Virus record (IMG/VR): IMGVR_UViG_3300005264_000176
Span: 1-24,671 of that record
From: a virus
Reading direction: 5' to 3' (one strand)
DNA length: 24,671 bases
Shown here: positions 1-13,767 of the stretch, in pieces
Layout: each line of letters begins with the position of its first letter
Numbering within the stretch: position 1 is the first letter of the stretch
Made by a program: the position numbers and the translations under genes
The notes under the pieces: generated by a model
What the model was told of the DNA's origin: nothing
What the model saw: only the letters and a program-made list of their open reading frames with translations
Database searches by the model: none

Positions 1-750
1 AAATATGTAACGTCAAATGCTTCTATTAATGTAGAGCGTTACAGTTATACGCAGTGGATCGCCTTTTTTGACCGTATTAATAAAGACACCAGTCCGGAAA
101 ATGCGGGGAATATTTTAAGGCGTTTTAAAACATTTGTTCGCTGGGCTAAGTCACGCGGGCGCATTAAGCAATCTCACTTGCTTGATATTCCAACACTTGC
201 TGTTGGTAATCATCAGCGTAGGCGAGATAGAACGTTAGAGTGGTTTGAAGTGGCTAAGTTGTGGCGTGAAATTGAGATGAGCAGGGCAGCGCTTAGTTGT
301 CGTGTTTGTACTCAATTACTCATTTTAACCGGTGCGCGTAATAGTGAAATTCGTGAAGCTAGAATAACTGAGTTTGATTTAGAGCGTGGCATCTGGATAT
401 TACCTGCAGAACGCTCTAAAACGAAAAAGGCGATCAGGCGTGCGTTATCGATTAAGGTGATTGAATTAATCAGATCGCTCGATTTAGCTTATGGCCATCA
501 ACGTGAGTTTTTAATCCCCGGGCAATCGGTTAAAAAGCCACTCACCAGCCATGCACAAAACCGTTTTGTACAACGGCTGAATGATAGAATGAAGCTGGAG
601 CACTTTGTACCGCATGATTTCAGACGCACTATTGTTACCCGTTTAAGTGAAAATGAGGTGATGCCCCATGTTACTGAAAAGATGTTAGGGCATGAACTGG
701 GGGGAATAATGGCGATTTATAATAAGCATGATTGGCTGGATGAACAGTGA
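1..750 (+). CDS. int: tyrosine recombinase / phage integrase, 3' part (5' end outside window)
   Basis: The reading frame is open from base 1 to the TGA at 748-750 and gives 249 residues, so the start codon lies before the window. The visible part holds the end of the core-binding domain and a whole catalytic domain. The first catalytic Arg is in TGARNSEIREA (around base 337), the HxxR box is HDFRRT (His codon 613-615), the second His is in GHELGG, and the nucleophile Tyr is in IYNKHDW near 720. The spacing and the YNKHDW ending resemble P4-type and related phage integrases. It lacks the extra segment before the HxxR box that marks integron integrases. It runs convergently into the GNAT gene and the two 3' ends overlap by 34 bp. 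It probably integrates the prophage or a neighbouring element; which attachment site it uses cannot be seen. Confidence 0.93.
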   Translation, partial: KYVTSNASINVERYSYTQWIAFFDRINKDTSPENAGNILRRFKTFVRWAKSRGRIKQSHLLDIPTLAVGNHQRRRDRTLEWFEVAKLWREIEMSRAALSCRVCTQLLILTGARNSEIREARITEFDLERGIWILPAERSKTKKAIRRALSIKVIELIRSLDLAYGHQREFLIPGQSVKKPLTSHAQNRFVQRLNDRMKLEHFVPHDFRRTIVTRLSENEVMPHVTEKMLGHELGGIMAIYNKHDWLDEQ

Positions 751-1289
751 AGTAGGTCTATAAACATGATGGGATTTTCTGCTTTTTTGTTATCTTCAGT
801 ATCCAATAAAGTGAATCCCTGTTTTTTATAAAACTCAACCGCTTCTTTTTTTGAGTCTGTGATAATGAAGCGACAGCCAACTTGTTTTGAAATAACTTCA
901 ACTGCAATAGCAACTGCTAAATCAACTAAAGCTTGGCCCAGTTTCATCCCTTTGAAGCGAGCATCTACAGCTAAACGCGCTATTTTTATAGCCGGAAGGG
1001 AGTCATAGTTGTTCGCATGGTGACAATCATCAATTGTGTAACCATTTCTAAGATCAACTTCACTGCAAGTAAGAGTGATAAATCCCATTATTCCCCGACT
1101 GCTTTCATTTTCTGAATCGTCAATTTTTTTAGCAACATAAGTTTGTGCTACCATGGATTTTTCAAAATCCAACGCTTGATTTTTCAGGAAGTTTTTAAGG
1201 GGCAGGAATGATTTGTTGCCTGTTTTAAAAGTCGATGTTTGATCAGATTCTTGAATAGGTCTAATGATGTAGTCTGTAAATAGTTCCAT
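717..1289 (-). CDS. GNAT-family acetyltransferase, TacT/AtaT-like toxin candidate
   Basis: A 190-aa GNAT-fold protein. Residues 103-120 hold the beta4/alpha3 acetyl-CoA region (IARLAVDARFKGMKLG), followed by a conserved strand and FYKKQGF at 153-159, whose Tyr154 matches the general acid of TacT/AtaT-type toxins. Those toxins acetylate the amino group of charged tRNAs and stop translation. The pyrophosphate loop is unusual: the family motif Q/RxxGxG/A reads RFKGMK, with Lys where Gly or Ala is normal. The gene starts 16 bp after the stop of a 52-aa gene, without a clear ribosome binding site, which suggests coupled translation as in GNAT toxin-antitoxin pairs. Its 3' end overlaps the integrase gene on the other strand. 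It could instead be an ordinary acetyltransferase. The GNAT call is firm; the toxin role is inferred. Confidence 0.85.
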   Translation of the reverse strand: MELFTDYIIRPIQESDQTSTFKTGNKSFLPLKNFLKNQALDFEKSMVAQTYVAKKIDDSENESSRGIMGFITLTCSEVDLRNGYTIDDCHHANNYDSLPAIKIARLAVDARFKGMKLGQALVDLAVAIAVEVISKQVGCRFIITDSKKEAVEFYKKQGFTLLDTEDNKKAENPIMFIDLLHCSSSQSCLL

Positions 1290-1305
1290 TAATTAATAAT
1301 AGGAA

Positions 1306-1464
1306 CTATTTACGTGAATTTAAGCTAGCCAGAATAGCGCGACCACGTTGTAGTGATGATTTTGCTTGGCGGTTTGGCTTATCTTCTTTCATGTGCTTTA
1401 TAAAACGCGCAGCATCAGCACCACTCAGTTCAACACGACCAAATGTAGAGCTTTTAATTGCCAT
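1306..1464 (-). CDS. small putative antitoxin partner of the GNAT protein
   Basis: A 52-aa basic protein starting MAIKSSTFGRVELSG. The start is set by a near-perfect Shine-Dalgarno (AAAGGAGGT, in bases 1468-1476) five bases before the ATG at 1464; a longer reading to 1515 ignores this site. The residues from 12 onward (ELSGADAARFIKHM) look like a short DNA-binding or dimerisation segment, and the basic, helical tail could wrap the toxin. I do not recognise the family by name. The antitoxin call rests on size, position directly upstream of a GNAT gene, co-transcription, and a TGCAAG/CTTGCA palindrome just upstream that looks like a self-repression operator. Confidence 0.6.
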   Translation of the reverse strand: MAIKSSTFGRVELSGADAARFIKHMKEDKPNRQAKSSLQRGRAILASLNSRK

Positions 1465-1497
1465 GGTGACCTCCTTTGTGATTTGATGAAAAAGAAA

Positions 1498-1738: not shown

Positions 1739-1805
1739 ACAGTGACGCATTTGTCAGATAACCGCTGAAATATATGTCACTGTGATTGTGATAACAGTGT
1801 TATAT
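1739..1805 (-). repeat. degenerate attC-like end of the cassette array
   Basis: Just after the stop of the last cassette gene, the minus strand has an R''-like box ATATAAC (1799-1805). ACAGTGAC (1739-1746) and GTCACTGT (1776-1783) form a perfect 8-bp inverted repeat, and ACAGTG appears again at 1794-1799. The conserved 3' half seen in the other sites is not recognisable. I read this as an eroded or rearranged terminal attC, with low certainty. Confidence 0.3.
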
Positions 1806-1808
1806 TGC

Positions 1809-2003
1809 CTAATTCTTTTTTATTGCAAAGCTGGGGCACGTTTCTTTTATTAGCATCTCCCTTGCTTTTTTGTTTTCCATCCACACCACTGTAAGCCTGC
1901 TGATTGTAATTCTGCTGTATACAACCTTATTGTTTTTGTTGCGTATTAACTTCTTGCTAAAGTGATCAATGTTTATTTCTTTGTACCAAGAAACCATAAA
2001 CAT
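1809..2003 (-). CDS. hypothetical gene-cassette protein (64 aa)
   Basis: A 64-aa basic protein starting MFMVSWYKEINIDHF. The ATG at 2003 is chosen because AGGAG (2016-2012) sits 8 nt upstream; a longer reading to 2039 would run into the preceding attC. No domain is recognised and no membrane segment is convincing. It is the most distal single-gene cassette of the array, with its own ribosome binding site, and its stop lies 3 bp before an ATATAAC box. Function unknown. Confidence 0.6.
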   Translation of the reverse strand: MFMVSWYKEINIDHFSKKLIRNKNNKVVYSRITISRLTVVWMENKKAREMLIKETCPSFAIKKN

Positions 2004-2030
2004 AATTTTTTCTCCTAAACCTCCACGGCA

Positions 2031-2089
2031 TTCTAACAACTCAAAGCAGTGGACAGATAAAGCCCTGCCACTGTTTTATGCGGTTATAT
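2031..2089 (-). repeat. attC: integron attC recombination site (59 bp)
   Basis: Minus-strand order: R'' ATATAAC (2089-2083), L'' CAGTGGCAG, a short central spacer, L' CTG-T-CCACTG, then R' GTTAGAA (2037-2031). L'' and L' pair fully except for one unpaired T, the extrahelical base that directs bottom-strand recognition by IntI. The 3' half carries TTGAGTTGTTA, shared with the other sites. Confidence 0.85.
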
Positions 2090-2332
2090 TTTTTCCCGAT
2101 GTTCATTTAAACCAATGCGCTTTAAATTTGAATAATCATTATCCAACAGCATCCACCCAAGCATTACATAATAATGGAGCATTGCTACAACTCGCAAATA
2201 TTCACCAAAACCGAACACAAAGCCAATTACTAGAATCAGCGCGGCAGTTGGCAGTCCTATTAGAGCGCACAGTCTGGTGATGTCGTTATACCACATCCAA
2301 ATCCAAGCGCGTTTAAATCTATTCTTTTCCAT
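2084..2332 (-). CDS. small membrane protein, integron gene cassette
   Basis: An 82-aa protein starting MEKNRFKRAWIWMW. A hydrophobic stretch around residues 22-45 (ALIGLPTAALILVIGFVFGF) is a clear membrane span, and a second weaker one covers roughly residues 46-63. The start is supported by AGAGGAAAAGAT directly before the ATG. The stop codon TAA is formed by the R'' box of the following attC (ATAACCGC), so gene and site are fused. No family is recognised. Small membrane proteins are common among integron cassettes and may act on the envelope or in phage exclusion, but there is no direct evidence for that here. Confidence 0.7.
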   Translation of the reverse strand: MEKNRFKRAWIWMWYNDITRLCALIGLPTAALILVIGFVFGFGEYLRVVAMLHYYVMLGWMLLDNDYSNLKRIGLNEHREKI

Positions 2333-2364
2333 ATCTTTTCCTCTAATTAACCGCTAAAACCAAA

Positions 2365-2450
2365 ATATAACAACTCAATAAACTGGACGCTAAACAGTTG
2401 ATTGTTAAGTTATTCGTGTTTTTACCGCCAGTTATTTTTTGCGGTTATAT
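2365..2450 (-). repeat. attC: integron attC recombination site (86 bp)
   Basis: R'' ATATAAC (2450-2444) and R' GTTATAT (2371-2365) are exact complements. Inside, L'' ACTGGCG pairs with L' CG-T-CCAGT, leaving one extrahelical T. Ends match the other sites (ATAACCGCA at 5', TTGAGTTGTTAT at 3'). Confidence 0.88.
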
Positions 2451-2669
2451 TACTTTTCGCTTCGCTCTTTGTGTGAGCGCATCAGCATTTAATACTAGCG
2501 CAGCAGAAACAAAAACACCCAAAGAACTTACACGGCTGTTTCGCTTGCGTGCGTATTTTTCAGGGTTTTCTAATCTGTCTTTTTCAAAAGCGATTCTTCT
2601 AGCCTTTTCCTCTGCTCTAGCTTTATTGTATCGCTCAGCTTCTTCTTTTTTATATGCGTAATTACCCAT
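2445..2669 (-). CDS. hypothetical gene-cassette protein, charged helical N-part (74 aa)
   Basis: Residues 7-45 are very rich in Lys, Arg and Glu and should form a long charged helix or coiled coil (KKEEAERYNKARAEEKARR). Residues 46-65 are moderately hydrophobic (VSSLGVFVSAALVL) and could be a membrane anchor. The ATG at 2669 follows AGAGGGCGGT. The stop TAA comes from the R'' box of the attC behind it. No known family recognised. An antisense reading of this segment, starting at 2398, is a shadow. Confidence 0.65.
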   Translation of the reverse strand: MGNYAYKKEEAERYNKARAEEKARRIAFEKDRLENPEKYARKRNSRVSSLGVFVSAALVLNADALTQRAKRKVI

Positions 2670-2698
2670 ACCGCCCTCTTAATTAATAATAAAAGTAA

Positions 2699-2785
2699 AT
2701 ATAACAACTCAATAAACCAGATGGCTCACGGTTGTTATTGTTAAAATTCAGTGGTCTAAGCCACTGGTTATTTTTGCGGTTATAT
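2699..2785 (-). repeat. attC: integron attC recombination site (87 bp)
   Basis: R'' ATATAAC (2785-2779) and R' GTTATAT (2705-2699) are exact complements. L'' ACCAGTGGC pairs with L' GCCA-T-CTGGT with a single extrahelical T. Very similar over its whole length to the site at 3080-3167, so the two cassettes come from the same attC family. Confidence 0.9.
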
Positions 2786-2794
2786 GTACTTGCT

Positions 2795-3052
2795 TTATAA
2801 GTCTAAGTCTAGATCTGCTTTAACACGCTTTTCCCACTCTTTTTGCTTTTTATCCTGCTGTATAATAATAATTGCCGACAGTGGAAAAGCTAATGCAAAC
2901 AACACTCGAAAAACATAAAACAATACAATCATTAGCGACGACTTAAACCCATACAACAAAATCTGAAAAGCGTTCCCACAAGCAGCGTCTCGCACTAAAA
3001 CGCCACCCCAATTATCTGCAATAGCACCCCAACAGCCTTTTAAATACTTCAT
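2795..3052 (-). CDS. small membrane protein, integron gene cassette (85 aa)
   Basis: Starts MKYLKGCWGAIADNWGG with AGAGGTTTAA before the ATG. Residues about 31-65 are strongly hydrophobic (two membrane segments, or one long one), followed by a charged cytoplasmic tail (KKQKEWEKRVKADLDLDL). Three Cys or paired Trp positions lie in the N-terminal part. The stop lies 9 bp before the attC R'' box instead of inside it. Family unknown; a membrane role is the only supported statement. Confidence 0.68.
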   Translation of the reverse strand: MKYLKGCWGAIADNWGGVLVRDAACGNAFQILLYGFKSSLMIVLFYVFRVLFALAFPLSAIIIIQQDKKQKEWEKRVKADLDLDL

Positions 3053-3079
3053 TTAAACCTCTTTATTAATAAAACGCAC

Positions 3080-3167
3080 ATATAACAACTCAATAAACCA
3101 GATGGTTCACGGCTGTTATTGTTAAAATTCAGCGACCTAAGCCACTGGTTATTTTCTGCGGTTATGT
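3080..3167 (-). repeat. attC: integron attC recombination site (88 bp)
   Basis: R'' ACATAAC (3167-3161) and R' GTTATAT (3086-3080) pair over six positions. L'' ACCAGTGG pairs with L' CCA-T-CTGGT, again with one extrahelical T. Central spacer about 40 nt. The 3' half is TTTATTGAGTTGTTAT. Confidence 0.9.
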
Positions 3168-3425
3168 TTCTTTGTTTTTATTAATGGCAAGATAGGCTAT
3201 TGTTGATCCTTCATCCATCCTGACGCTAGGTAGGTTTTTAATTTCATTTAGAGCAACTACCAAGTCTTTATTTTTAATATGCATCTTACTCATATCTTTA
3301 TAAACTCTTTTAGCTGATCTGTTTATTGAGTTAATAAGGCTTACATTAAATACATCTTCATTACTTTCAGGGCAAGAAACGCCGAGTGTTACAGCCAAAC
3401 GTCTTATTGCTTCAAAACTACCCAT
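3162..3425 (-). CDS. hypothetical gene-cassette protein (87 aa)
   Basis: Starts MGSFEAIRRLAVTLGVSCPE; the ATG at 3425 follows TTGGAGAAATTT, so the longer TTG reading to 3437 would start in the ribosome binding site. The predicted protein is soluble, with helical N- and middle parts and basic KNKDLVVALNEIKNLP. No domain is recognised. The stop TAA is again supplied by the attC R'' box (ACATAACC). One gene per cassette, with its own ribosome binding site and no visible promoter. Confidence 0.65.
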   Translation of the reverse strand: MGSFEAIRRLAVTLGVSCPESNEDVFNVSLINSINRSAKRVYKDMSKMHIKNKDLVVALNEIKNLPSVRMDEGSTIAYLAINKNKET

Positions 3426-3450
3426 AAATTTCTCCAATTAGTTACTAAAA

Positions 3451-3506
3451 ACATAACAACTCAATGAACGCGGACAACAAGTTGCCTGTTATCTGTATGG
3501 TTATGT
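3451..3506 (-). repeat. attC: integron attC recombination site, short (56 bp)
   Basis: R'' ACATAAC (3506-3500) and R' GTTATGT (3457-3451) are exact complements. The inner stem is GGCAAC against GTTG-T-CC, with one unpaired T. The 3' half reads CATTGAGTTGTTATG as in the longer sites. The inner stem is shorter than in the others. Confidence 0.78.
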
Positions 3507-3719
3507 TTCTAATTCATTGCTAAGCCTACCCGCTAACAACTGCCAATCTTCGAAATTACAAGTTGCACACTGCTCAGACTCTTGCACTAATTGCTGTTTT
3601 GTCTGCAAACTCAACTCTTCCCAAACACTCAGCACATAACGAACAACCGCTAAAGCACCACCTGTTTTTCTGTCATGCGCATATCTGCAAGCGAAAACAA
3701 TCATTATTTGATGGTTCAT
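3501..3719 (-). CDS. hypothetical protein (72 aa), first gene of the cassette array
   Basis: Starts MNHQIMIVFACRYAHDRKTG after AGGGGATTAAAT. The CRYAHDRKTG(x)AVVxxxL pattern reminds me of small uncharacterised proteins of phages and plasmids (CRYALxRxTY-like), whose function is unknown. Later residues include a CATC pair that could bind metal. Its stop TAA is formed by the R'' box of the attC at 3451-3506, which places it inside a cassette, not in the phage operon proper. No attI or other attC is seen upstream. Confidence 0.65.
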   Translation of the reverse strand: MNHQIMIVFACRYAHDRKTGGALAVVRYVLSVWEELSLQTKQQLVQESEQCATCNFEDWQLLAGRLSNELET

Positions 3720-3721
3720 AT

Positions 3722-3817
3722 TTAATCCCCTAAAACCATTTTGTTGATAGCAAGCTCTTTATAAGCTCTAAAATCTCTAGTTGCGCAAGCATCAGAAATT
3801 CCAAAATAATCAGTTAA
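3722..3817 (-). pseudogene. 31-codon remnant in frame behind the upstream gene's stop
   Basis: Directly after the TAA of the upstream gene (3820-3818), in the same frame, an open stretch runs to a TAA at 3724-3722. It reads LTDYFGISDACATRDFRAYK and then ELAINKMVLGD. The pattern FGIS-x3-A-T-R-D-x2-x-YKEL looks like the recognition helix of a winged HTH of the kind found before WYL domains. There is no start codon or ribosome binding site. I read it as a leftover 3' fragment, possibly marking the junction between the phage operon and the cassette array. Weak evidence. Confidence 0.3.
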
Positions 3818-4525
3818 TTAGTAGTTATGACCGATATAAACAGTCTCACCAATACAGTTGTCTAAATCCATTATCTCAGTACGAGCAGCATACATTTTGA
3901 ATAGCCATGCCAATAAGTCATGGCATTGAGTAGATGCCGTAATTGTGTCGGATATGCGACCGTTTTGGCCATTATATAAATAACCTATGTACCAACCTTT
4001 AGTTGATGACATTCCTTTATGGCGATAGAAAGTTGCTTTAATGTTGTACCAATCATATTCAGGGTGAATAATTTTTAATTCAATGCGTTCATTTTCATCA
4101 TCACCATCCCATTCAATACCAATAGTGTCATGACCATGATTCAAGCATTCATCACCCCAATAGCTTTTTATTTTATCGGTAAGAGCTTCAAAGGCCATTT
4201 CTTTAGGCACTGGTGTTAACTTGTCCTCGATTACTTCAACTATTTGCTTTTGGGCTTGTTCTTTTAGATTTGATTCAAACGCTGAAACAACTGTGTGAGC
4301 AATGAAATTATTGTACTCAGGGAGTGATACTTGGGTTAATGATGCACCAATTGACGCTTCAATCTTTTCACCAATAGCTTTACCAAAGTCGCTATAAGAG
4401 CGTATAGCCGAATCAACTTGATCCTTTAGCATTTTCTTTAGGCTATCTTCAATCATTCCCTCAAGCGTTCCATCAGTGCATAACTGTTGCATTTTTTGTG
4501 CGGTTAATTCGTTTAATTCTTTCAT
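3818..4525 (-). CDS. hypothetical phage protein (235 aa)
   Basis: Start ATG at 4525 follows TAGGAAATAAA. The N-terminal 100 residues are helical and charged, with many Gln, Lys and Glu (EQAQKQIVEVIEDKL). The C-terminal half is mixed alpha/beta with an acidic patch (IEWDGDDENERIELK) and aromatic-rich strands (HPEYDWYNIKATFYRHKG). No signal peptide or membrane segment. I do not recognise a domain. It is the last full gene of the leftward early operon, 8 bp after the gene before it, and is likely expressed early from the immunity-region side. Confidence 0.75.
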   Translation of the reverse strand: MKELNELTAQKMQQLCTDGTLEGMIEDSLKKMLKDQVDSAIRSYSDFGKAIGEKIEASIGASLTQVSLPEYNNFIAHTVVSAFESNLKEQAQKQIVEVIEDKLTPVPKEMAFEALTDKIKSYWGDECLNHGHDTIGIEWDGDDENERIELKIIHPEYDWYNIKATFYRHKGMSSTKGWYIGYLYNGQNGRISDTITASTQCHDLLAWLFKMYAARTEIMDLDNCIGETVYIGHNY

Positions 4526-4533
4526 TTTATTTC

Positions 4534-4734
4534 CTAGATTAAGTTAATTAATTTTTCAACTTTTTTTAGACAAGCAGCGCACGTTTGGCGAGCGGCTTCG
4601 ATTGGCTCGTCTGACGTTACGCCATCTGATGAAAGCGGTTCTCGCCCACACAAGCTAGCCTCACCTGCTTTTTTATCAATTAAGAAAGCGTGACAGGCGC
4701 GTTTAGGGTTAGATCCTTGCCATTTTGTTTTCAT
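4534..4734 (-). CDS. small Cys/His-rich hypothetical protein
   Basis: About 66 aa from MKTKWQGSNPKRACHAF; an alternative ATG at 4749 overlaps the previous gene by 11 bp. I prefer 4734 because GGGAAA lies about 8 nt upstream, but the upstream start cannot be excluded. Cysteines occur in ACHAF, LCGREP and TCAACLKK, a spacing that can bind one zinc. Proteins with this Cys layout (CHA...CG....CxxC) are common small phage early proteins of unknown role. Confidence 0.65.
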   Translation of the reverse strand: MKTKWQGSNPKRACHAFLIDKKAGEASLCGREPLSSDGVTSDEPIEAARQTCAACLKKVEKLINLI

Positions 4735-4738
4735 CGAA

Positions 4739-5011
4739 TTATTTCCCATTTAATTTATCTAATGATTTTTGCTTTCTCTCTTGGTATTCATAACAACCAA
4801 AATTAAAGCCCACTAAAACTGTTAATGCTTTACAACTTGCGCAGGGTCGCATTGATGGCAAATGCATATCTGTAGAAGAAATTGATAATGCAGTTGATAA
4901 CTTCACTAACTTAGCTTGAAGGTGCTCAGAGCATGAATGACTACCATCACGACCACGAACCCACTCAAAACCACAAGAACAACAGGCGCATAAGTCCTCT
5001 TTTTTAGGCAT
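4739..5011 (-). CDS. small zinc-binding hypothetical protein
   Basis: A 90-aa protein. It starts MPKKEDLCACCSCGFEWVRG, with Cys8, 10, 11 and 13, then GSHSCSEH, CASC and one later Cys. The block CSCGFEWxRGxDGSHSCSE is reminiscent of small uncharacterised phage early proteins. It probably folds around one or two zinc ions. It overlaps or abuts the next gene and is separated by 19 bp from the HTH gene upstream, so it belongs to the leftward operon. Function unknown. Confidence 0.7.
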   Translation of the reverse strand: MPKKEDLCACCSCGFEWVRGRDGSHSCSEHLQAKLVKLSTALSISSTDMHLPSMRPCASCKALTVLVGFNFGCYEYQERKQKSLDKLNGK

Positions 5012-5030
5012 GTTTTAATTCCTATTACAT

Positions 5031-5264
5031 TCAATGAGAGTGATTTTCTGATACTTTCCGGCTTTCAATAAACTTCAGCACGTCACTGAATTTATAAAGC
5101 GGTCTGCCGTTTCCGTATAAATGCACGGGAGGAACGATTTCTAAAAAGTTGGTGTGTTTAACTAACTTCATGCTGAAGTAATGGCGGCTTACGCCCATTA
5201 AACGGGTGATTTCGTTAACATTGATTAAACGCTCACGATCTAATTCTTCTGCAGTGATTGGCAT
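5031..5264 (-). CDS. AlpA/excisionase-like helix-turn-helix protein
   Basis: A 77-aa protein after a strong AAGGAGCCAGTT site. Residues 14-40 (INVNEITRLMGVSRHYFSMK) form a MerR/AlpA-type HTH: Ile-Asn-x-x-Glu-Ile-x-x-hydrophobic-hydrophobic-Gly-Val-Ser-Arg. It is followed by a wing with GNGRPLYKFSDVLKFIESRK, the usual wing and helix of AlpA and Xis proteins. Such proteins bind DNA near att sites and promote excision, or switch on integrase genes. It lies in the leftward operon facing the integrase end, as expected of an excision factor. The excisionase role is inferred; the HTH is fairly clear. Confidence 0.65.
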   Translation of the reverse strand: MPITAEELDRERLINVNEITRLMGVSRHYFSMKLVKHTNFLEIVPPVHLYGNGRPLYKFSDVLKFIESRKVSENHSH

Positions 5265-5274
5265 AACTGGCTCC

Positions 5275-5514
5275 TTATAACGTTAAATCGTTAGCTAATA
5301 AATTTTGAATCCGATCGCCTGCATGTTGAAAACCTGAGTGCCATGCATCTGCTTCGGGTGTTGCTTCTTTGTAGGGGCGCAATATGCGTTGACCGTTTAT
5401 TTTTTGGTTTAATTTATCGGCAAAACCATTGTGATAAGCCACACTACGAGGAATCCCACTATCAAAACGGTTTTTGTAAATTTCACTGGCGTTTAAATCG
5501 GTTAGTTTCAACAT
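5275..5514 (-). CDS. hypothetical phage protein (79 aa)
   Basis: I choose the second of two adjacent ATGs (5514), because AGGAG at 5524-5520 lies 5 nt upstream; the longer reading to 5550 starts inside the previous gene without support. It begins MLKLTDLNASEIYKNRFDSG. Residues include IPRSVAYHNGFADKLN and EADAWHSGFQHAGDRI: two YHNGF/WHSGF-like elements, perhaps an internal duplication of a His-Gly-Phe motif. No domain is named. It sits 10 bp before the HTH gene in the same operon. Confidence 0.65.
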   Translation of the reverse strand: MLKLTDLNASEIYKNRFDSGIPRSVAYHNGFADKLNQKINGQRILRPYKEATPEADAWHSGFQHAGDRIQNLLANDLTL

Positions 5515-5522
5515 CATTGCTC

Positions 5523-5981
5523 CTAAGCCGCTTTCGGCAACGGCATCCATGCTTTAAGTGCATCGGAACACTCATATTCGCTTTCAAAATAGGTGTCGTT
5601 CCATTTTCCGCGGAAAAGGTTTACCTGCATGTTGGCAATCGTCCATTGCTGTTCTGGTTCGTTCCATGCACAGCAAACGGGAAGCGGGTAGTTATCAAAA
5701 CAGCCAATAATTACATCACCTTTCGGGGCGCTTTGTGCAGGTTGCCAGCCTCCGTTCATTTGTTTGGCTTTTTGATTCCATGCTTCAGCGAGTTTTTCGC
5801 CGTCAAAGCCAGTTGATAAACTATGACCGCAAGTAGTGCAGCTGATGCTGTAGGGCTCTTGTGCATAAGGGCCACCTTTCAGCTGCGCAATGCCTTTACA
5901 AGCAGGGCAGGCTAATAGGGTTTTATTTATTTTTTGATGGAATTTTTTAATGATCCCATCGCGTACTTTTCCACTTGGCAT
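5523..5981 (-). CDS. Lar-like zinc ribbon fused to a DUF551 domain
   Basis: A 152-aa protein. Residues about 20-68 form a Lar/restriction-alleviation-type zinc ribbon: LLACPACKG, ISCTTCGHS, then EAWNQKA, the hallmark end of Lar-like proteins. Residues about 75-152 match the DUF551 pattern: GGWQPAQSAPKGD at its start and AWMPLPKAA at its end. Lar proteins of Rac and lambdoid phages soften type I restriction in E. coli; the DUF551 function is unknown. The start follows a weak GCGGGA site. Its end overlaps the ribosome binding site of the next gene. The fused architecture is probably known in prophages. Anti-restriction activity is only inferred. Confidence 0.8.
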   Translation of the reverse strand: MPSGKVRDGIIKKFHQKINKTLLACPACKGIAQLKGGPYAQEPYSISCTTCGHSLSTGFDGEKLAEAWNQKAKQMNGGWQPAQSAPKGDVIIGCFDNYPLPVCCAWNEPEQQWTIANMQVNLFRGKWNDTYFESEYECSDALKAWMPLPKAA

Positions 5982-5985
5982 GTTG

Positions 5986-6240
5986 TTATCCCGCTTTTAA
6001 TAATGACTGATTGCCTAACAGGCGACTTTTGATAAAGCGTGTCGGCTGGCGTTTACCGTTTTGGCTGTAACCTGGCATGGCAACAACGAGCTTTTTATTG
6101 ATCATAAAATCAATAACAACTTGCACTTGCTCTGTGCTACTTTCACATTCCAAGCTGTTTTTCATTCCATCAATTGTGCAACCGTTTGTGCGTGAGCAAG
6201 CAGCGAGTAGAGTGGTTAAAATGGTAAAATTAATTTTCAT
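5986..6240 (-). CDS. hypothetical small winged-helix-like protein (84 aa)
   Basis: The ATG at 6240 follows AAGGAAAAGCAAA; an upstream ATG at 6264 lacks such a site. It starts MKINFTILTTLLAACSRTNG. The order helix, helix, then EQVQVVIDFMINKKLVVAM and PGYSQNGKRQPTRFIKS looks like a small winged-helix protein: recognition helix then a two-stranded wing ending in a basic tail. This is a structural guess, not a family match. It overlaps the 34-codon gene upstream by 11 bp. Confidence 0.65.
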   Translation of the reverse strand: MKINFTILTTLLAACSRTNGCTIDGMKNSLECESSTEQVQVVIDFMINKKLVVAMPGYSQNGKRQPTRFIKSRLLGNQSLLKAG

Positions 6241-6334
6241 TTTGCTTTTCCTTAAGCTTATCAATCGGTAGTGAAGCCACCGCTGGTATCAAAAAACGGA
6301 TTAAATTTTCTATTTTTAAGTGTTGACCGGGCAT
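6230..6334 (-). CDS. very small hypothetical protein (34 aa), translationally coupled
   Basis: Its ATG comes one base after the TAA of the previous gene (TAATATG), and AAGAGG lies about 8 nt upstream inside that gene. It ends 11 bp inside the next gene. The peptide MPGQHLKIENLIRFLIPAVA continues SLPIDKLKEKQNEN, an amphipathic helix with a charged tail. The tight packing between two genes is the main evidence that it is real. Confidence 0.45.
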   Translation of the reverse strand: MPGQHLKIENLIRFLIPAVASLPIDKLKEKQNEN

Positions 6335-6335
6335 A

Positions 6336-6575
6336 TTAATGTACCTCTTGACCTGCCGAGTAGTCGATGTCGGGATCTTCATCTAGTGCTTTTTGGATCC
6401 AGACAAATACATTTTCATACCCTTCAATGAGCTTGAGCGCTTCAATTAATAGCTCTGGTGAGCGTGCTTTTGCTTCTGAGTGTGTGGTGATGCTTGCAGC
6501 TTCCAGCTTTAACGCTTTTGAGCGTTCACCCAGTTCAGTGCCGTCTGGTGTTCTGATTTTGGTTTTCATTGCCAT
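6336..6575 (-). CDS. hypothetical phage early protein (79 aa)
   Basis: Starts MAMKTKIRTPDGTELGERSK after AAAGGATTGCATC. Middle residues SPELLIEALKLIEGYENVFVW suggest a helix pair; the acidic end reads ALDEDPDIDYSAGQEVH. No domain recognised. It is one of the first genes of the leftward early operon, whose promoter must lie further right. Confidence 0.65.
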   Translation of the reverse strand: MAMKTKIRTPDGTELGERSKALKLEAASITTHSEAKARSPELLIEALKLIEGYENVFVWIQKALDEDPDIDYSAGQEVH

Positions 6576-6606
6576 GATGCAATCCTTTTTAATTGTGACC
6601 TGTCAC

Positions 6607-6786
6607 TTACTTATTAAGCTGTGCGCGTTTTTTTAAATAAACGCTGCGGTTGTCAATTTCACGCACGGTAAAATCAATCGGCGTGGTGTTGAATGCTGGT
6701 GTTTTTAACAGTGTTGCTGTTTGTTGTTTTATCTGTTTTGTGAAATAAAAATAACTAAAGGTGGTTTTTAGTTGGGGGTGGGGCAT
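6607..6786 (-). CDS. possible small phage protein (59 aa)
   Basis: An open frame from ATG at 6786 to TAA at 6609-6607 starts MPHPQLKTTFSYFYFTKQIK and ends FTVREIDNRSVYLKKRAQLN plus K. The C-terminal half reads like a real protein and is followed closely by the next gene, but the ATG sits only four bases after a terminator hairpin and has no ribosome binding site. Either it is leaderless, or only the 3' part of an older gene remains. Without this gene, 6576-6842 would hold only the terminator. Confidence 0.4.
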   Translation of the reverse strand: MPHPQLKTTFSYFYFTKQIKQQTATLLKTPAFNTTPIDFTVREIDNRSVYLKKRAQLNK

Positions 6787-6790
6787 AAAA

Positions 6791-6809
6791 AAAGGGCGTT
6801 AAGCCCTTT
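6791..6809 (-). terminator. rho-independent terminator of the triple-HTH gene
   Basis: On the minus strand AAAGGGC pairs with GCCCTTT around TTAAC, followed by a run of T. It lies 34 bp after the stop at 6843 and separates the regulator from the leftward operon. Confidence 0.8.
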
Positions 6810-6842
6810 ATATCGTTATTTCATGTGGAAGAATTCTAAAGG

Positions 6843-7683
6843 TTAAGTGCTGTGATGCTTGGCTACCTGCAAAACAAGCACTTTATCTTTCTCGGAGCAA
6901 AGTGAAAAGTAACGAAGCAGTTGTTTGCTTTGGCTGTCAGTTATACCCATCTCTTGTGATAATTCAGCTTCTAGTAAGCGTTGGTATTGAGTGAGATGGT
7001 AGCTTGAAGTGTTGGTTTGATATGCACTGTTATTTTCATTCAATAGCTCTTGTGGTGAGCATTGTAGTATCTCTGTAAGCTTAGTGAGATTTTTACCATT
7101 GGCTTCTGTTTGATGTGAGATTTTTACCATTGGCTTCTGTTTGATTGGCTTCCCATAATGAAACAGAAGCTTTACTTATACCAATAAAGTCAGCAACTTC
7201 AATTTGTGTAAGTTGTAAGGCTTTTCTCCGTGCTTTAATTTTATCTCCGGCAGAGGTTGGCTTCACTGTCGAGACGGTGCCAGATAACCATCTTGGATCG
7301 CAATTTAAGGCATCTGCCAACTCAAATATTTTTACTGTTTGGATTACTTTCCCTGTTAATAATCGGTGAATGTTAACTTGTGACATACCTGATTTTATTG
7401 CCAATTCATTTTGAGTGAGTGCCATTATATCCATGCGCTCTTTGATATTGAGAGCGAGTAGATTTGTTGGTTTGGATTCGATTTCATTGTCACCGTGTTG
7501 TAGCCACTCTGGGGAGCAATTTAATGTTTCAGCTAGTTCAAAAATTTTCCGTGGGTTATCTGTTGTACCATCTTCAAGCTTGTGAATTGCATTTTGGGAA
7601 ATGCCGACACTTTCAGCAAGTTCTTGTTGGCTGAGGCTTAGTTCAGTACGTTTGTTTTTAATGCGTTCGCCCAGAGTATTCAT
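6843..7683 (-). pseudogene. triple-HTH (XRE) regulator, frameshifted by a 31-bp tandem duplication
   Basis: Read from the ATG at 7683, the first frame encodes two full XRE/HTH_3 domains (residues about 4-65 and 73-134; LSQQELAESVGISQNAIHKLE and LTQNELAIKSGMSQVNIHRLL) and most of a third (LTQIEVADFIGISKASVSLW). It then goes out of frame and stops at 7093. The rest of the third domain (KLTEILQCSPQELLN) and a helical C-terminal tail continue in another frame to 6843. At the switch lies an exact 31-bp tandem repeat (7084-7145); removing one copy restores a single frame of about 270 residues. There is no S24 peptidase domain. It is likely an additional immunity or early-gene regulator. The truncated form still has two complete HTH domains and may be active. 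Confidence 0.85.
7084..7145. repeat. 31-bp perfect tandem duplication inside the triple-HTH gene
   Basis: Bases 7084-7114 and 7115-7145 are identical over 31 positions (beginning GTGAGATTTTTACC), and the match stops exactly at both edges. Because 31 is one more than a multiple of three, the second copy shifts the reading frame. Protein-level proof: NQTEANGKNLT appears at the end of the first frame and again at the start of the second. Confidence 0.97.
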
Positions 7684-7894
7684 GTTATTTCCAGCTAATA
7701 TATTGAGATACAACTTATAATACTATCTTGTTTTAAAATCTATATTTGTTTTTAATTAATGTGTTTTTTGATTTAGATCTCGGTGGTTATGAGTAAATAA
7801 TTTGCAGGAAAGCGGTGGTAAAGCGGTTTTTTAGTGAATTTTGCTAGGGAATAGGCTTAACAAGTTTGGGATTTTAAAAATTGGGGATGTAAAA

Positions 7895-7913
7895 AAAGGG
7901 CGGAGAGCCCTTT
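7895..7913 (-). terminator. rho-independent terminator of the S24-repressor operon
   Basis: Minus-strand AAAGGGC-TCTCC-GCCCTTT followed by a run of T, 57 bp after the stop at 7970. The rest of 7684-7969 is gene-free and should contain the promoter of the triple-HTH gene, but I see no clear -35/-10 pair. Confidence 0.8.
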
Positions 7914-7969
7914 GGTTTGTTTTAGTGGAAAATGAAATAAGTTGGTGGTGTGATTTTCGCTTAGTGCGT

Positions 7970-8176
7970 TTAATTTAAATAACGCATGATAGCAAAAGCA
8001 AGGGCTGTGCTCGCCTCTACCCTGAAATCAGTTAAGTCTTTCTGTATGACTTTGATATCTGATTTTATTTCAGAAACATCTTTTTCGAGGTGAGTAACTC
8101 GCACTTCCAGTGTTGTCATCGGTGGTTCGCCTCCGTTGTTCTTGGTAGTAAAGTCTACAGAATGAATATTACTCAT
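7970..8176 (-). CDS. small coiled-coil hypothetical protein (68 aa)
   Basis: Starts MSNIHSVDFTTKNNGGEPPM; the ATG at 8176 overlaps the stop of the gene upstream (ATGAGTAA) and has AGGTG just before it. Residues 21-50 (TLEVRVTHLEKDVSEIKSDI) show a heptad pattern of a short coiled coil, then a hydrophobic end FAIMRYLN. Similar short coiled coils occur next to phage repressors and in XhlA-like proteins, but I cannot assign a family. Last gene of the repressor operon before the terminator. Confidence 0.65.
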   Translation of the reverse strand: MSNIHSVDFTTKNNGGEPPMTTLEVRVTHLEKDVSEIKSDIKVIQKDLTDFRVEASTALAFAIMRYLN

Positions 8177-8441
8177 TATCACCTGCCTTTTCCTTATTGT
8201 CCAAGTTTCCCTCTTTTAAATTGGCTTTTACGTAGTCAAGATGGAATTCCATTACGTAACCGCAACGCCCGCAAAGCACTTTCATGTATTCGTCTTTGGG
8301 TTGTTCGTAAGGTATGCCCCAGCCAGCATGGTTATGACAAATAGGACAGGCCAGCCCACCGTTATACTTTGATTCTAATATATTTTGAAGGGTAAACAGG
8401 TTGTCAGTGACCCATTGATCTTTTGTTTTTTTATTGTCCAT
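8169..8441 (-). CDS. zinc-ribbon hypothetical protein (90 aa)
   Basis: Starts MDNKKTKDQWVTDNLFTLQN. A zinc ribbon is visible: ACPICHNHAGWG, then about 20 residues later LCGRCGYVMEF, i.e. CxxC...CxxC. The C-terminus is highly charged. Its ATG overlaps the stop of the S24 frame (TAATG), so translation is coupled to the repressor. A role in immunity control is possible only by position. Confidence 0.72.
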   Translation of the reverse strand: MDNKKTKDQWVTDNLFTLQNILESKYNGGLACPICHNHAGWGIPYEQPKDEYMKVLCGRCGYVMEFHLDYVKANLKEGNLDNKEKAGDNE

Positions 8442-8967
8442 TAAAATAATCTTCCTGCAAAAATCACTACACCGACTATTGTGCAGTTGCCGTTTATTGG
8501 TAATATTTTGTTGGGCCAGTCTGGGTTGGTGGCTTTTAGGTAGCGTTCGCCACCTTCGATAATCAGCTGTTTGAGGGTTGCTTCGTTTTCATCATCTAAT
8601 CTTGCTACTACATATTTGCCGTTGACCGGCTGAACTTCGGGGTCGATAAATATCAGATCATCTTCGTTAAATGTACCCTGCATGCTTTGACCGCGCACTT
8701 TTAACAGGAATGTTCTCTCTGAGCATTTAACCGGGCAGGGGTAGTGATCTGCATCAGTGTGGTGAATTTCATTAATTGCCCAAACAATAACCAATCTGGC
8801 TCACATTTTAGCACTTCTGCTAATTTTATAATTTTTCGAGGGTTTGATACTTGTCCGCTCTCGATTCTTTGTAATGACTGTTGAGACATATCAAGGCTCT
8901 CGGCTACATACCTTTGGGTAAAGCCTAGCTCAATTCTTCTTGCTTTAATTCTTGTTGCCAAGTTCAT
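8441..8967 (-). pseudogene. CI/LexA-like S24 repressor, frameshifted between HTH and peptidase parts
   Basis: From ATG 8967 (site AAAGGAAAG) the frame gives a clear XRE HTH (residues 6-62; LGFTQRYVAESLDMSQQSLQ) ending CEPDWLLFG. It then changes frame near 8760-8781 and stops at 8701 in junk. In the -1 frame the S24 domain follows: INEIHHTDADHYPCPVKC, catalytic Ser in KVRGQSMQG, catalytic Lys in ATLKQLI, and it ends at 8441. Intact relatives carry a linker with an Ala-Gly cleavage site (like SWVQAG) between WLLFG and this point. Here that segment is missing, so a deletion has removed the linker and the frame. No slippery heptamer is seen that would support programmed frameshifting. The HTH part alone is unlikely to repress well without its dimerisation domain. 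Confidence 0.85.
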
Positions 8968-8988
8968 TTACTAACTTTCCTTTGGCGA

Positions 8989-9083
8989 GAGAAATCAATT
9001 TTCTCTTTCTTTATGGAAGTGTCACAACTTTAAATAGTGTTGACAAGCACGTTAAAGTTGTTGTTAAATACAATTCTTAATTG
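8989..9083. promoter_or_regulatory. divergent immunity operators and rightward early promoter
   Basis: Three palindromic elements lie between repressor and Cro: GAGAAA-5 nt-TTTCTC (8989-9005); the perfect 10-bp pair ACAACTTTAA (9024-9033) and TTAAAGTTGT (9052-9061); and CAATT-3 nt-AATTG (9071-9083). A -35 box TTGACA (9040-9045) sits between the 10-bp arms, with a -10 candidate TTAAAT (9064-9069) 18 bp on. Repressor binding at the arms would cover the promoter. Confidence 0.6.
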
Positions 9084-9099
9084 TTTAATGGTGGTCATT

Positions 9100-9303
9100 A
9101 TGTCTTCAATTGAAAAAGCAACTGAATTAATTGGCGGTCAAACTGCTGTTGCCAAGCTGTTTCATATTAAACAGGGTCACGTTTGGGCATGGGTGAGTAA
9201 ACGCAAGCGTGCCCCTGCCAAATATATCCGACAAATATCTAAAGCCACTAACGGCAAGGTTAGCGTTGATGATCTTCTTAAAGACCATGAGGATTCTAGC
9301 TGA
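9100..9303 (+). CDS. cro: Cro-like (YdaS-type) HTH regulator
   Basis: A 67-aa protein; ATG 9100 is used because an earlier start at 9037 would place the promoter inside the gene. It starts MSSIEKATELIGGQTAVAKL. Residues 9-45 match the YdaS/Cro-type HTH: GGQTAVAKLFHIKQGHVWAW, then RAPAKYIRQISKATNGKVS, the usual ending that sets the dimer. As the first rightward gene opposite the CI-like gene it should repress the repressor promoter and favour lytic growth. The ribosome binding site (GGTGG) is modest. Confidence 0.85.
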   Translation: MSSIEKATELIGGQTAVAKLFHIKQGHVWAWVSKRKRAPAKYIRQISKATNGKVSVDDLLKDHEDSS

Positions 9304-9362
9304 TTGTTATTTTAAGTTAACTATTTGAATAAAAACAAGATAAACAATAAAAAGGGGATTAC

Positions 9363-9797
9363 ATGGACAGTTTAGATTTAGCGATTCATCAGACGGCACA
9401 TAGCGATTTACCGCTGCTTGCAAAGCAGATGGGGATCAATGAGCAGGGTTTGCGTAATAAGGTTTGTCCGACTAATACGACGGCAAAGCTTTCGGTGCGC
9501 GAGTTGTTGTCGATGATGTTAATTACCGATGATTGGTCGGTGCTGAGCGTTTTAGCGCAAGAGGTGGGCTGCAAGGTGGTAGCGAGTGAGCCGATGCAGA
9601 GCAGCTCTATTTTAGGGGCTCTGCTGGTTTTTGGTAAAGAGCAGGGCGATGTGTCGGCTTCTATTCAATCAGCATTAAGTGATGGCCGTATCAGTGTGCG
9701 TGAGCATGGTTGTATCAATAAGGAGATTGAAGAGGCGATTAATGCACTGCATCTTCTTAAAAAGTCGGTTCAAAATCAAGCAGGGAGTTTGTTATGA
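9363..9797 (+). CDS. phage regulatory protein CII, CP76 family
   Basis: A 144-aa protein after AAAAAGGGGATTAC. The pattern MDSLDLAIHQTAHSD...LAKQMGINEQGLRNKV...TAKLSVRELLSMMLIT is typical of the Phage_CP76 (CII) family found next to Cro in vibrio- and shewanella-type prophages. An N-terminal HTH is followed by a helical C-terminus. These proteins are thought to act as early transcription regulators. Gap 9304-9362 holds no gene. It overlaps the next gene by 4 bp. Confidence 0.85.
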   Translation: MDSLDLAIHQTAHSDLPLLAKQMGINEQGLRNKVCPTNTTAKLSVRELLSMMLITDDWSVLSVLAQEVGCKVVASEPMQSSSILGALLVFGKEQGDVSASIQSALSDGRISVREHGCINKEIEEAINALHLLKKSVQNQAGSLL

Positions 9798-10159
9798 GTC
9801 TGATTAAAAACCACAGAGAACAGTTATTGCCAAAATGCGGGTATGAAAAAGCCCTGCGCAAACAGGGCTCTCCAACACTTGCCAAAACACCAACCTCGGT
9901 TGCAAAGGAAGTGGTGGGAGATTATACCCGTTGGGCTGATATTGCAATAGGTTGTGTGCAGTTTGTTGATGGAGAGCCTGTCAATGCGTCTTTGCGATTC
10001 GGGCTAACACGGCAATGTGAAGGGCTTCGTGCGTCTATTGGCGGGCGAGACGGAAGGGCTGAGTGTTTTTTAATGAGTCTTAAGCAGGTTGATGAAGTGA
10101 TTGAACGGTTGGAAATTTTAAAAGTGATGCAGTTTGGTGGGCAAGGGGCGATTGAATGA
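9794..10159 (+). CDS. hypothetical phage protein (121 aa)
   Basis: Starts MSLIKNHREQLLPKCGYEKA with an ATGA overlap with CII. The middle carries CVQFVDGEPVNASLRFGLTR and IGGRDGRAECFLMSLKQVDE. It ends with a helix (EVIERLEILKVMQFG). Co-transcribed with CII and the O-like gene (4-bp overlap). No domain is named; a replication or regulatory role is suggested by position only. Confidence 0.68.
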   Translation: MSLIKNHREQLLPKCGYEKALRKQGSPTLAKTPTSVAKEVVGDYTRWADIAIGCVQFVDGEPVNASLRFGLTRQCEGLRASIGGRDGRAECFLMSLKQVDEVIERLEILKVMQFGGQGAIE

Positions 10160-10982
10160 GTGATGTAGAAAGAGGTTTTAAAGGGGTTTGGATACCTGCT
10201 GCAGTAATGCGCATTTCTCTGAGTTTTTTAATGTGGGTAAGGCGCGTTGTTCGCAAATTATTAATTCATTGGAAAAGAAAAAACTGATCACTATTGTGTT
10301 AATTCGCAAGGGTAAGAGTGTGGTTAAACGCATCTTAAAATGTACCGGAAATAGTTTAAAACGGGTTCCTAAAATCACGCCTAAAGCACCTCAAAACGGG
10401 GTAGGGAAAACCGTGAAAACTAAGCCGTTGAAGGTGGTTAATATATTAAACAAGGTGGTTAATAAATTAAACAACCCTATTAAATTTATTAAACAACCCT
10501 ATTTAATAAATGATCAGGGTAGTAATACAAAGACCTTTAATAATACAAAAGAGAGTAATACAAGTAATAAACACTTGTCTGATTCCCCTGCTCAGCCCGT
10601 TGTTTCGGTTTCTGTGAAAGCTCATCCAACCCCCATTGAGCAACCTAAAAAACAAAATGGTTTGCTTGATGTTTTCAAGCAGTATCCGGCTCATCGCCGT
10701 GGTGGTACAAACGCTTATCTTCGCAAGCTTTGGAAATCTGAAAAACTGACTGAGCAAGACGCTCAAGATTGTTTGACTTGGTTGGTTCAAGCCTCTGAAC
10801 GTGATCCGCAATGGTCGACTGATGGCAATGGCAGGTATGTGCTTGGGATAACCAATTTTGTACGTCAACGAAAATGGCTTGCTCCTCTGCCTGATGATAC
10901 GCGTGTACTGCCTCAGTTTGGTGAGCAAGCGCAGGGTACAGTGAATAATTTACAGAACTGGCAACCGCCAGTACAGGGGTGA
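10156..10982 (+). pseudogene. O-like replication protein (N-terminal HTH), frame broken by internal deletion
   Basis: The proper start ATG 10156 (ATGA overlap) gives MSDVERGFKGVWIPA, the usual opening of phage helix-turn-helix replication proteins. It then leaves frame at about 10195 and stops at 10287. The rest is in the -1 frame from about 10195 to 10982: CSNAHFSEFFNVGKARCSQI with KKLITIVLIRKGKSVVKRI (the second half of the HTH and wing), a low-complexity middle encoded by the iterons, and a C-terminal domain (LDVFKQYPAHRRGGTNAYLR). Relatives have about 30 residues between WIPA and the CSNAHF part, so roughly 90 bp plus one base are missing, probably across a TGC/TGC junction. A TTG at 10188 is too close to any ribosome binding site to be a good start. 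Confidence 0.78.
10431..10510. repeat. ori: iteron-like repeats, candidate phage replication origin
   Basis: Two head-to-tail 21-bp units AAGGTGGTTAATAWATTAAAC (10431-10451, 10452-10472) differ at one base. They are followed by two 22-bp-spaced units starting AACCCTATT (10473-10494 and from 10495). The tract is very AT-rich and TAATACAA repeats follow at about 10522-10567. The layout, iterons inside the O-like gene, is as in lambda ori. Inferred from pattern only. Confidence 0.6.
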
Positions 10983-10985
10983 TTT

Positions 10986-11564
10986 ATGGATATTTGTGAT
11001 CGTGACGAAGTGCTTCAAACCGTTGTTGGTTTGAGTGAACTGTACGGTAAAACATTCACTGAATCAGCGATGAGTATTTACTGGCTTGCATTGAAAAACA
11101 TGAGCTTAGGCGATTTTAACCGAGCTGTTGAGTTGCATGTGACAGATCCCGAATCTGGGCGGTTTTTTCCGAAGCCGTGTGATTTAATCGGTCGTGTTTC
11201 TCGCTCTGGCAAGCAGAATTCTGAGCTGGTTGCTCAGTCGGCTGAGCTTGGCTGGTCGCTGGTGATGGGGCGTTTGCGCTCGGTTGGTTCGTATGGAACT
11301 CTTAAAATTAGCGATCAGGTGGCGATTGAAACGGTGCGTCAAATGGGCGGTTGGAAGTCGCTTTGTGCAACCAATCTCGACAAGATGGCGTTTAAGCAAC
11401 GTGAGTTTATGAGTTTGTATCAAACGGTGGTGAAAGCGCCTGTTGAGTTGTTACCAAGTGAGCTTGCTGGGCGTATTGGTTTGAGTAAACAAAACTCGAA
11501 GGTGATGCAGGTGTTACGCGCTCCGCAGTCGGTGAGGGCGATGCTTGAGGAGAGAGTGACATGA
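10986..11564 (+). CDS. phage replication protein, P-like / DUF6475-type
   Basis: A 192-aa protein 3 bp after the O-like gene. The N-terminal pattern (LYGKTFTESAMSIYWLALKN, then FNRAVELHVTDPESGRFFP and PKPCDLIG) is that of a family of phage proteins next to O-like genes (DUF6475), whose layout resembles lambda P/helicase-loader partners. Later residues QMGGWKSLC are also typical. Role in loading a host helicase is inferred from position and analogy. It overlaps the next gene by 4 bp. Confidence 0.75.
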   Translation: MDICDRDEVLQTVVGLSELYGKTFTESAMSIYWLALKNMSLGDFNRAVELHVTDPESGRFFPKPCDLIGRVSRSGKQNSELVAQSAELGWSLVMGRLRSVGSYGTLKISDQVAIETVRQMGGWKSLCATNLDKMAFKQREFMSLYQTVVKAPVELLPSELAGRIGLSKQNSKVMQVLRAPQSVRAMLEERVT

Positions 11565-11767
11565 TCAGACCTACGATTGATTTGGGTGATAAGCCTGGTG
11601 AATATAAATCACGCATGGGTGTTGGTTATGCGGGGCGTTATGGACCTAAAAAATCTAAACGTCCGAAAGCGCAGTTTTTCAAAGCAGAAAAAACAACCGC
11701 TGCTGTTTCTCAGGATGTTGCAATTGCAAACGCTGAAGCTTTGAAAAAAATGGTGGGCATTGCATGA
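11561..11767 (+). CDS. hypothetical basic protein (68 aa)
   Basis: Starts MIRPTIDLGDKPGEYKSRMG, overlapping its neighbours by 4 bp on both sides (ATGA). Residues 15-45 are Gly-, Lys- and Arg-rich (GRYGPKKSKRPKAQFF) and the end is an Ala-rich helix. Probably disordered and nucleic-acid-binding in part. No family recognised. Confidence 0.62.
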   Translation: MIRPTIDLGDKPGEYKSRMGVGYAGRYGPKKSKRPKAQFFKAEKTTAAVSQDVAIANAEALKKMVGIA

Positions 11768-12960: not shown

Positions 12961-13290
12961 ATGGCTAAAACGGTTAATGAGCGCAAGCAAGCACAGCGTG
13001 AAAAATTAAGAGCGATGGATATTACGGTGGTTGAGGTGAAGCTTTCTGCCAGTGAGCGCGTGATGTTGGACGAGGGTTGTATTGTACGTGGCGGCGTGGG
13101 TGGTGCTTATTCGCGTGATGAGTATATTGCGACGCTTATCCGCAATGATAATAATAATTTAAAAAGTGACCTGTCACAGTTGGGGCATTGTAAAAAATGT
13201 GATGAAGATTTGCCTGTGGGCTGTAATGGTTTGTTTAAGGGTGATTGTGAATGTTTTCATACGCTTAAGGCTAAGTCGTTAATGTTGTAG
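12961..13290 (+). CDS. hypothetical phage protein with Cys-rich tail (109 aa)
   Basis: ATG follows the integrase TAG directly (TAGATG). The N-terminal half, NERKQAQREKLRAMDITVVE then KLSASERVMLDEGCIVRGGV and YSRDEYIATLIRND, resembles a ribbon-helix-helix-like DNA-binding segment seen in small phage proteins. The C-terminal CKKCDEDLPVGCNG with a later CECF could bind zinc. No named family. In the operon just before the antiterminator. Confidence 0.68.
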   Translation: MAKTVNERKQAQREKLRAMDITVVEVKLSASERVMLDEGCIVRGGVGGAYSRDEYIATLIRNDNNNLKSDLSQLGHCKKCDEDLPVGCNGLFKGDCECFHTLKAKSLML

Positions 13291-13319
13291 TTGTGGTTTT
13301 TCTTTGGGGAAAGGGATTG

Positions 13320-13766: not shown

Positions 13767-13767
13767 T

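Follow-up and report, generated by a model that had tools for sequence, protein, structure and literature searches.

Integron cassettes with genes opposed to their attC sites in a prophage-like virus record

Introduction

Integrons are usually seen as platforms in which a single promoter beside attI serves the cassettes, gene and attC site having the same direction. Both integrons and clusters of attC sites lacking an integrase (CALINs) have already been described in phage genomes, for example those of H101/PH101, TJE1 and M16-3, and in assays of attC sites from three virulent phages IntI1 recombined five of six with attI1 (Qi et al. 2023, PMC9892861). The cassettes of H101 were called typical, the text being silent on gene direction relative to attC polarity (PMC9892861). 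Scored by the method applied below to other arrays, the Shewanella prophage M16-3, which has a host-derived integron as well as a CALIN, holds sense cassettes, the Tetrasphaera phage TJE1 has one sense site and the Pseudoalteromonas phage H101 is mixed, its four sites lying on the + strand and its annotated genes on the - strand, which is that of the operon, with a credible ORF on the + strand as well in two cassettes. Because M16-3 and TJE1 are of the sense type and H101 is mixed, mirroring, in which gene and attC point opposite ways, is not universal in phage arrays; it is a trait of the kind of array described here and not of every phage array. The published phage CALINs resemble that kind in being attC arrays in phages without intI, but the present kind is consistently inverted and has GGTTA boxes. 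The open-access literature searched contained no description of arrays in which genes run counter to attC; as far as it shows, phage CALINs are already known whereas a class of mirrored arrays having its own motif at the crossover has gone unreported.

Two further systems invite comparison. Insertion at attG puts cassettes outside integrons (Loot et al. 2024, as cited in PMC11023631) and, as far as the citing account goes, would account for the entry of a first cassette at a GTT site outside attC, such as the left end of the present array at 1799; it differs in that the array described here consists of several cassettes at the stop codon of a phage gene. Phage morons and lysogenic-conversion cargo are likewise accessory genes at a similar place near a prophage end (compare the viral contig L003, below), but here each gene is a unit bounded by attC.

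The array and its surroundings

The DNA analysed (the window) is the whole of IMG/VR virus record IMGVR_UViG_3300005264_000176, one linear sequence of 24,671 bases. At 24.7 kb the record is probably a fragment, and the absence of intI reported below covers the record only, the host and the rest of the phage lying outside it. An earlier note, made from the sequence alone, had drawn attention to an integron-like array at 1809-3719, beside or inside a prophage. The five cassettes are indeed there (Table 1), between a prophage integrase and a leftward operon and co-directional with that operon, their genes being on the - strand; the gene at 3501-3719 has to be taken out of the array, as it lies outside the last attC and is phage-like (phrog_11947, E 9e-6). 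When this gene is included the leftward operon is counted from 3501 (3501-8794, - strand). To the right of the operon lie rightward early genes, an M15-type peptidase ORF, terminase, portal and protease/capsid ORFs, the last of these names being given partly by eye. The array most likely belongs to the prophage and lies towards its left end, because relatives of the integrase in viral contigs are mostly at the left end of their records and because in one of them, L004, a leftward operon directly adjoins the integrase. In L003, which holds the closest integrase relative (65%), other genes come next.

Table 1. Features of the window, with the array of phage H101 for comparison (bits are scores of the attC covariance model R1)
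Feature	Position	Strand	Evidence or remark
Phage integrase, cut by window start	1-750	+	PF00589 E 3e-23, phrog_1; relatives at prophage left ends
GNAT acetyltransferase and small 53-aa ORF	717-1467	-	between integrase and array
attC array proper, five cassettes	1800-3500	attC +, genes -	G^TT boundaries, R1 matches
Cassette 1	1800-2083	attC +	G^TT boxes at 1799 and 2083; ORF 1809-2003 and s1
Cassette 1 ORF, inverted	1809-2003	-	RBS AGGAG, best codon score of six frames
attC s1, 59 bp	2031-2089	+	18.5 bits on + (match 2028-2092), none on - up to E 10
Cassette 2	2084-2444	attC +	ORF 2084-2332 and s2; stop TAA is complement of crossover TTA
Cassette 2 ORF, inverted, 82 aa, hydrophobic small protein	2084-2332	-	RBS AGAGG, best codon score of six frames
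attC s2, 86 bp	2365-2450	+	36.1 bits on +, 11.1 on -
Cassette 3	2445-2779	attC +	ORF 2445-2669 and s3
Cassette 3 ORF, inverted, 74 aa	2445-2669	-	RBS AAGAGGG
attC s3, 87 bp	2699-2785	+	25.2 bits on +, 14.8 on -
Cassette 4	2780-3161	attC +	ORF 2795-3052 and s4
Cassette 4 ORF, inverted, 85 aa, hydrophobic small protein	2795-3052	-	RBS AAAGAGG
attC s4, 88 bp	3080-3167	+	20.6 bits on +, 12.2 on -
Cassette 5	3162-3500	attC +	ORF 3162-3425 and s5
Cassette 5 ORF, inverted, 87 aa from ATG	3162-3425	-	RBS TTGGAG
attC s5, 56 bp	3451-3506	+	24.4 bits on +, 11.2 on -; R' box TTA is stop codon of phage gene 3501-3719
Final phage gene ahead of array	3501-3719	-	phrog_11947 E 8.7e-6; TAACC at stop, TAA^C abuts s5 crossover
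Leftward phage operon incl. repressors	3818-8794	-	phrog_2600, transcription-regulator PHROGs
CALIN of phage H101	L126:25916-27990		genes against attC polarity; convergent sense ORFs in two cassettes

A number of other features of the record can be mentioned here. The GNAT ORF overlaps the 3' end of the integrase, which stops about 14 aa short of its relative in L003, and together with the 53-aa ORF it possibly forms a toxin-antitoxin pair. A second, complete tyrosine recombinase (phrog_1, 11764-12960, + strand) is found amid the rightward early genes, far from the left-end integrase. The Rfam family sRNA-Xcc1, described from an integron cassette in Xanthomonas, has a match (RF02221, 66.7 bits) at 14315-14401 on the + strand, and directly downstream is a phage gene (14443-15237) related to transcription-regulator and anti-repressor families.

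Identity and polarity of the attC sites

The earlier note had proposed five attC sites of 56-88 bp separating small ORFs on the - strand, and five sites of 59, 86, 87, 88 and 56 bp do separate small ORFs on that strand. The R'' and R' boxes are complementary at 7/7, 7/7 and 6/7 letters in s2 to s4, AAC and GTT are kept in all five sites, and the L'' and L' arms are paired with an extrahelical base in L'', as in attC. A motif scan for R' and R'' boxes and L arms with one bulge, using a threshold score of at least 14, returned three of the five and nothing else in the window, compared with one such match in the 20 dinucleotide shuffles that served as control. Folding of single sites as DNA is weak evidence (z of -0.6 to -2.7 against shuffles); pairing lies above all shuffles in both cells paired and covariation score. 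A search with an attC covariance model had also been suggested, and it was run with a model independent of the window. In the family of G002, a Pseudoalteromonas, 143 of 197 genomes have integron integrases matching TIGR02249 (NCBIfam) above its cut-off, and array-side flanks of such genes yielded 44 attC candidates oriented with the array and 2 oriented against it; 27 of the 44 were used to build the model R1 (alignment A2), which contains no window sequence and the structure of which is backed by 81 cells with two-sided changes. The first five places in the R1 search of the window are taken by exactly the five sites (E 5e-7 to 0.017), the best match elsewhere reaching 10.9 bits. A sixth candidate at 1755-1805, with GTTATAT at 1799, had no R1 match and was rejected. 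By structure and by an independent model, the five attC sites are real.

Neither of the two recombinases of the window matches TIGR02249, in keeping with the description of both as not of the integron type. The window thus holds no intI gene and no complete integron, and, having two or more neighbouring attC sites and no intI, the array is a CALIN, as it had been labelled, for this 24.7 kb and probably fragmentary record.

The polarity of the sites is a separate matter. The best R1 score is on the + strand in all five, four of them scoring 36 to 20 bits there against 15 to 11 bits on the - strand and s1 being without a - match; in a control on 212 reference matches beside intI, R1 gave 211 of them the direction of their array. 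On the + strand there is also an unpaired extra base in the L'' arm and TAACAA after R'', which lie on the side of the polarity strand in 44 of 46 reference candidates, and of the sites at which this can be decided, 29 of 31 in phages and 155 of 162 in the reference carry the extra base in the L'' arm of the polarity strand. Bouvier et al. (PMC2727003) found that the position of the extrahelical bases (EHBs) sets the recombining strand and that their inversion switches the strand preferred and shifts the crossover to R''. Because the R1 scores, the TAACAA after R'' and the extra base in L'' all agree on the + strand, the sites point right while the genes point left, and every cassette gene is inverted with respect to its attC. 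The ordinary cassette layout implied by the earlier note is not supported on this account.

Mirrored cassettes in the window and in other viral contigs

For all the cassette ORFs of the window the annotated - frame is preceded by an RBS and scores best of six by codons, and in each of the four cassettes bounded by two attC the longer ORF is opposite to the attC strand. Cassette 1, the left end of which is a GTTATAT box at 1799 that is part of no detected attC, also has its ORF on the - strand, so that none of the cassettes is canonical in the sense of gene and attC running the same way. Cassette boundaries stay at G^TT, and the stop codon TAA is the exact complement of the crossover TTA in cassettes 2, 3 and 5 and in the phage gene at 3501-3719.

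Chromosomal cassettes behave quite differently. Of the reference cassettes, 143 have an ORF of 50 aa or more; all come from one bacterial family (that of G002) and, with direction taken as the strand of the longer ORF, 140 are sense and 3 inverted. Further viral contigs were found by a pattern search followed by R1 and by a search with a 22-base sequence, with motifs from the window or the first contigs, so that the sample represents its own kind only. Seven contigs with attC were obtained, namely L084 (four sites), L085 (six), L097 (four), L109 (two), L091 (one), L123 (13) and L122 (one, through the 22-base match), and the five with complete cassettes have nearly all of these inverted. Together with the window, 27 cassettes between neighbouring sites are inverted and one, a marginal exception, is sense. 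Fisher's exact test of phage arrays against the reference gives 5e-27, or 6e-24 without the window, figures that express a contrast and not a probability as cassettes are not independent. The longest mirrored array among these sequences is that of L123 (IMGVR_UViG_3300019768_000037, 16.4 kb), with its 13 attC at 8187-14098.

ORF direction was scored by length, with a homology check for some genes only, and by that check the inverted reading is the coding one: the inverted gene at L084:1604-2218 (- strand) is a Mom-family DNA-modification protein (PHROG 1.9e-35, Pfam 2.9e-25) and further inverted genes match phrog_8970 (8.7e-43), phrog_26542 (6e-14) and phrog 1411. The arrays of L084, L097 and L123 run in the same direction as their neighbours, which are a RecE-like exonuclease adjoining the array of L084, a DNA primase and a polymerase exonuclease subunit. 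Of the stops measured in phage arrays, 15 of 35 fall exactly on the TTA of R'. Near-identical attC DNA (46-122 bp) is common to six different contigs, which outside attC match in short stretches only, such as 218 bp at 74% between L085 and L123; this is as expected of cassettes that would be mobile. No tyrosine recombinase (PF00589) or intI was found in the seven contigs, all of which may be fragments.

The phage sites have a signature of their own. In 33 of 35 phage sites, but in 1 of 180 chromosomal ones, a G stands immediately before the GTT of R', so that GGTTA at the crossover box is near-invariant in the former and almost absent from the latter, although the search pattern, derived from the window, demanded GG at one site in each contig found with it and about two dozen of the 35 are free of this bias. 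Chromosomal cassettes beside TIGR02249 genes share with the window type the R''/L''/L'/R' plan, the bulge in L'' and TAACAA after R''; they differ in having the opposite gene direction, C and not G before the R' core (139/180) and an intI gene. R2, a model of phage sites alone, gives attC-like matches in 162 of the 395 genomes from the order of G002. In the collection of phages the attC sequences gave a convincing match to H101 only and the L123 array as a whole gave none; MW202573 and P12002L had one weak R1 match or none and were left out. An exact 18-mer from an attC had no match in the viral contigs, cassette proteins were not found in plasmids, and in the 197 genomes of the family of G002 there was one weak match to them (E 9e-4).

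Relatives without the array

The earlier note had advised a comparison with related genomes with and without the array, and this could be followed part of the way. Homologues of the phage gene at 3818-4525 were found in four of 391 genomes of the order of G003 (29-34%) and in none of 395 of the order of G002. In three prophage-like regions of two genomes of the former order such a homologue (29-33%) occurs with an integrase-like ORF, and R1 finds no attC between the two. Because these three relatives are without attC at that place, the comparison supports the array being an accessory insertion in the prophage. The predicted empty site of the window was in none of the relatives, the three prophages being too distant to show one. 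The viral contigs contained no relatives of the phage genes at 3818-4525, 5523-5981 and 3501-3719 or of the GNAT gene, and the window integrase was not found in 369 genomes of the class at E 1e-45, a threshold that is perhaps too strict. Two attC sites, apparently of the ordinary sense type, lie close to a prophage relative in one genome of the order of G003 (L156:11821-12948).

Discussion

The reading favoured here, to which we would give a probability of about 0.6, is that these are mirror-image integron cassettes in a prophage, joined at TAA^C by IntI acting in trans and read by the phage operon. The most conventional alternative is that the array is an ordinary CALIN with attC polarity along the genes, on the - strand, a piece of a host chromosomal integron that a phage has carried off. 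The stops do overlap an R box and genes start about 30 nt past the other R box, which fits a - reading too, but because the R boxes are symmetric stop codons cannot decide polarity, and the R1 score of the - reading is 8 to 25 bits lower at four sites and nil at the fifth, while the extra base and TAACAA lie on the + side just as in the reference candidates, making this explanation very improbable. A different matter is whether the sites are still used as such. They may be derived from attC and no longer used by an integrase, serving as shared hairpin leaders through which genes spread by homologous recombination in a mosaic exchange, and the near-identical attC DNA in otherwise different contigs, the RecE-like exonuclease beside the L084 array and the lack of a recombinase in cis in the seven contigs would all be accounted for in this way. 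That the L arms and bulges are kept, with pairing beyond all shuffles, and that cassette boundaries stay at G^TT argues against it, and it is judged unlikely, though by no means negligible.

It is distinctly improbable that a different recombinase, borne by a phage or a satellite, uses the GGTTA sites in a capture system of its own that merely resembles an integron. The contrast in GGTTA between phage and chromosomal sites and the reversed cassette orientation speak for such a system, but the chromosomal and phage attC models find each other's sites and the seven contigs, possibly incomplete, hold no tyrosine recombinase. A broader proposal, speculative and on balance unlikely, is that phages, probably of marine Gammaproteobacteria, share a mirror-image pool of GGTTA cassettes and swap small counter-defence or takeover genes that are appended behind the stops of early operons, possibly through a novel recombinase or an attI-like site.

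Returning to mirror-image cassettes joined by an integron integrase, a mechanism can be proposed from what the sequences display directly, that is attC identity and polarity, gene orientation, position at the end of an operon and recurrence in other viral contigs. Each cassette has its attC ahead of the gene and not behind it, and the crossover would fall right after the stop codon of the preceding gene, at what reads TAA^C along the gene and G^TTA along the attC. The host cell would supply an integron integrase in trans that folds and cuts the attC hairpin, and the cassette would be joined behind the stop of the phage gene that precedes the array or at the R' box of a resident attC; recombination of the window sites by such an enzyme is inferred. 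Insertion at TAA^C would damage no gene in a compact operon. To judge from their co-direction, which is its basis, the cassettes would be transcribed with the phage operon, and it may well be that phages keep the inverted orientation because only an inverted gene is read from their own operon, so that selection would retain mirrored cassettes. For the first cassette the point of entry would have been a GTT site not belonging to an attC, and attG insertion, in the account cited above, may be a precedent for this.

The near-exceptionless reversal in these phage arrays suggests that the cassette module can be remodelled to suit a compact operon, with the crossover behind a stop codon and the gene read from the phage genes upstream. 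Mirrored arrays give a way of testing directly the origin of cassettes and the selection of attC polarity. They also point to small phage genes, including a Mom-type DNA-modification gene, that form a shared pool and may move as cassettes, and the finding suggests that the gene-capture system known to spread resistance genes has a mirror-image form that viruses use.
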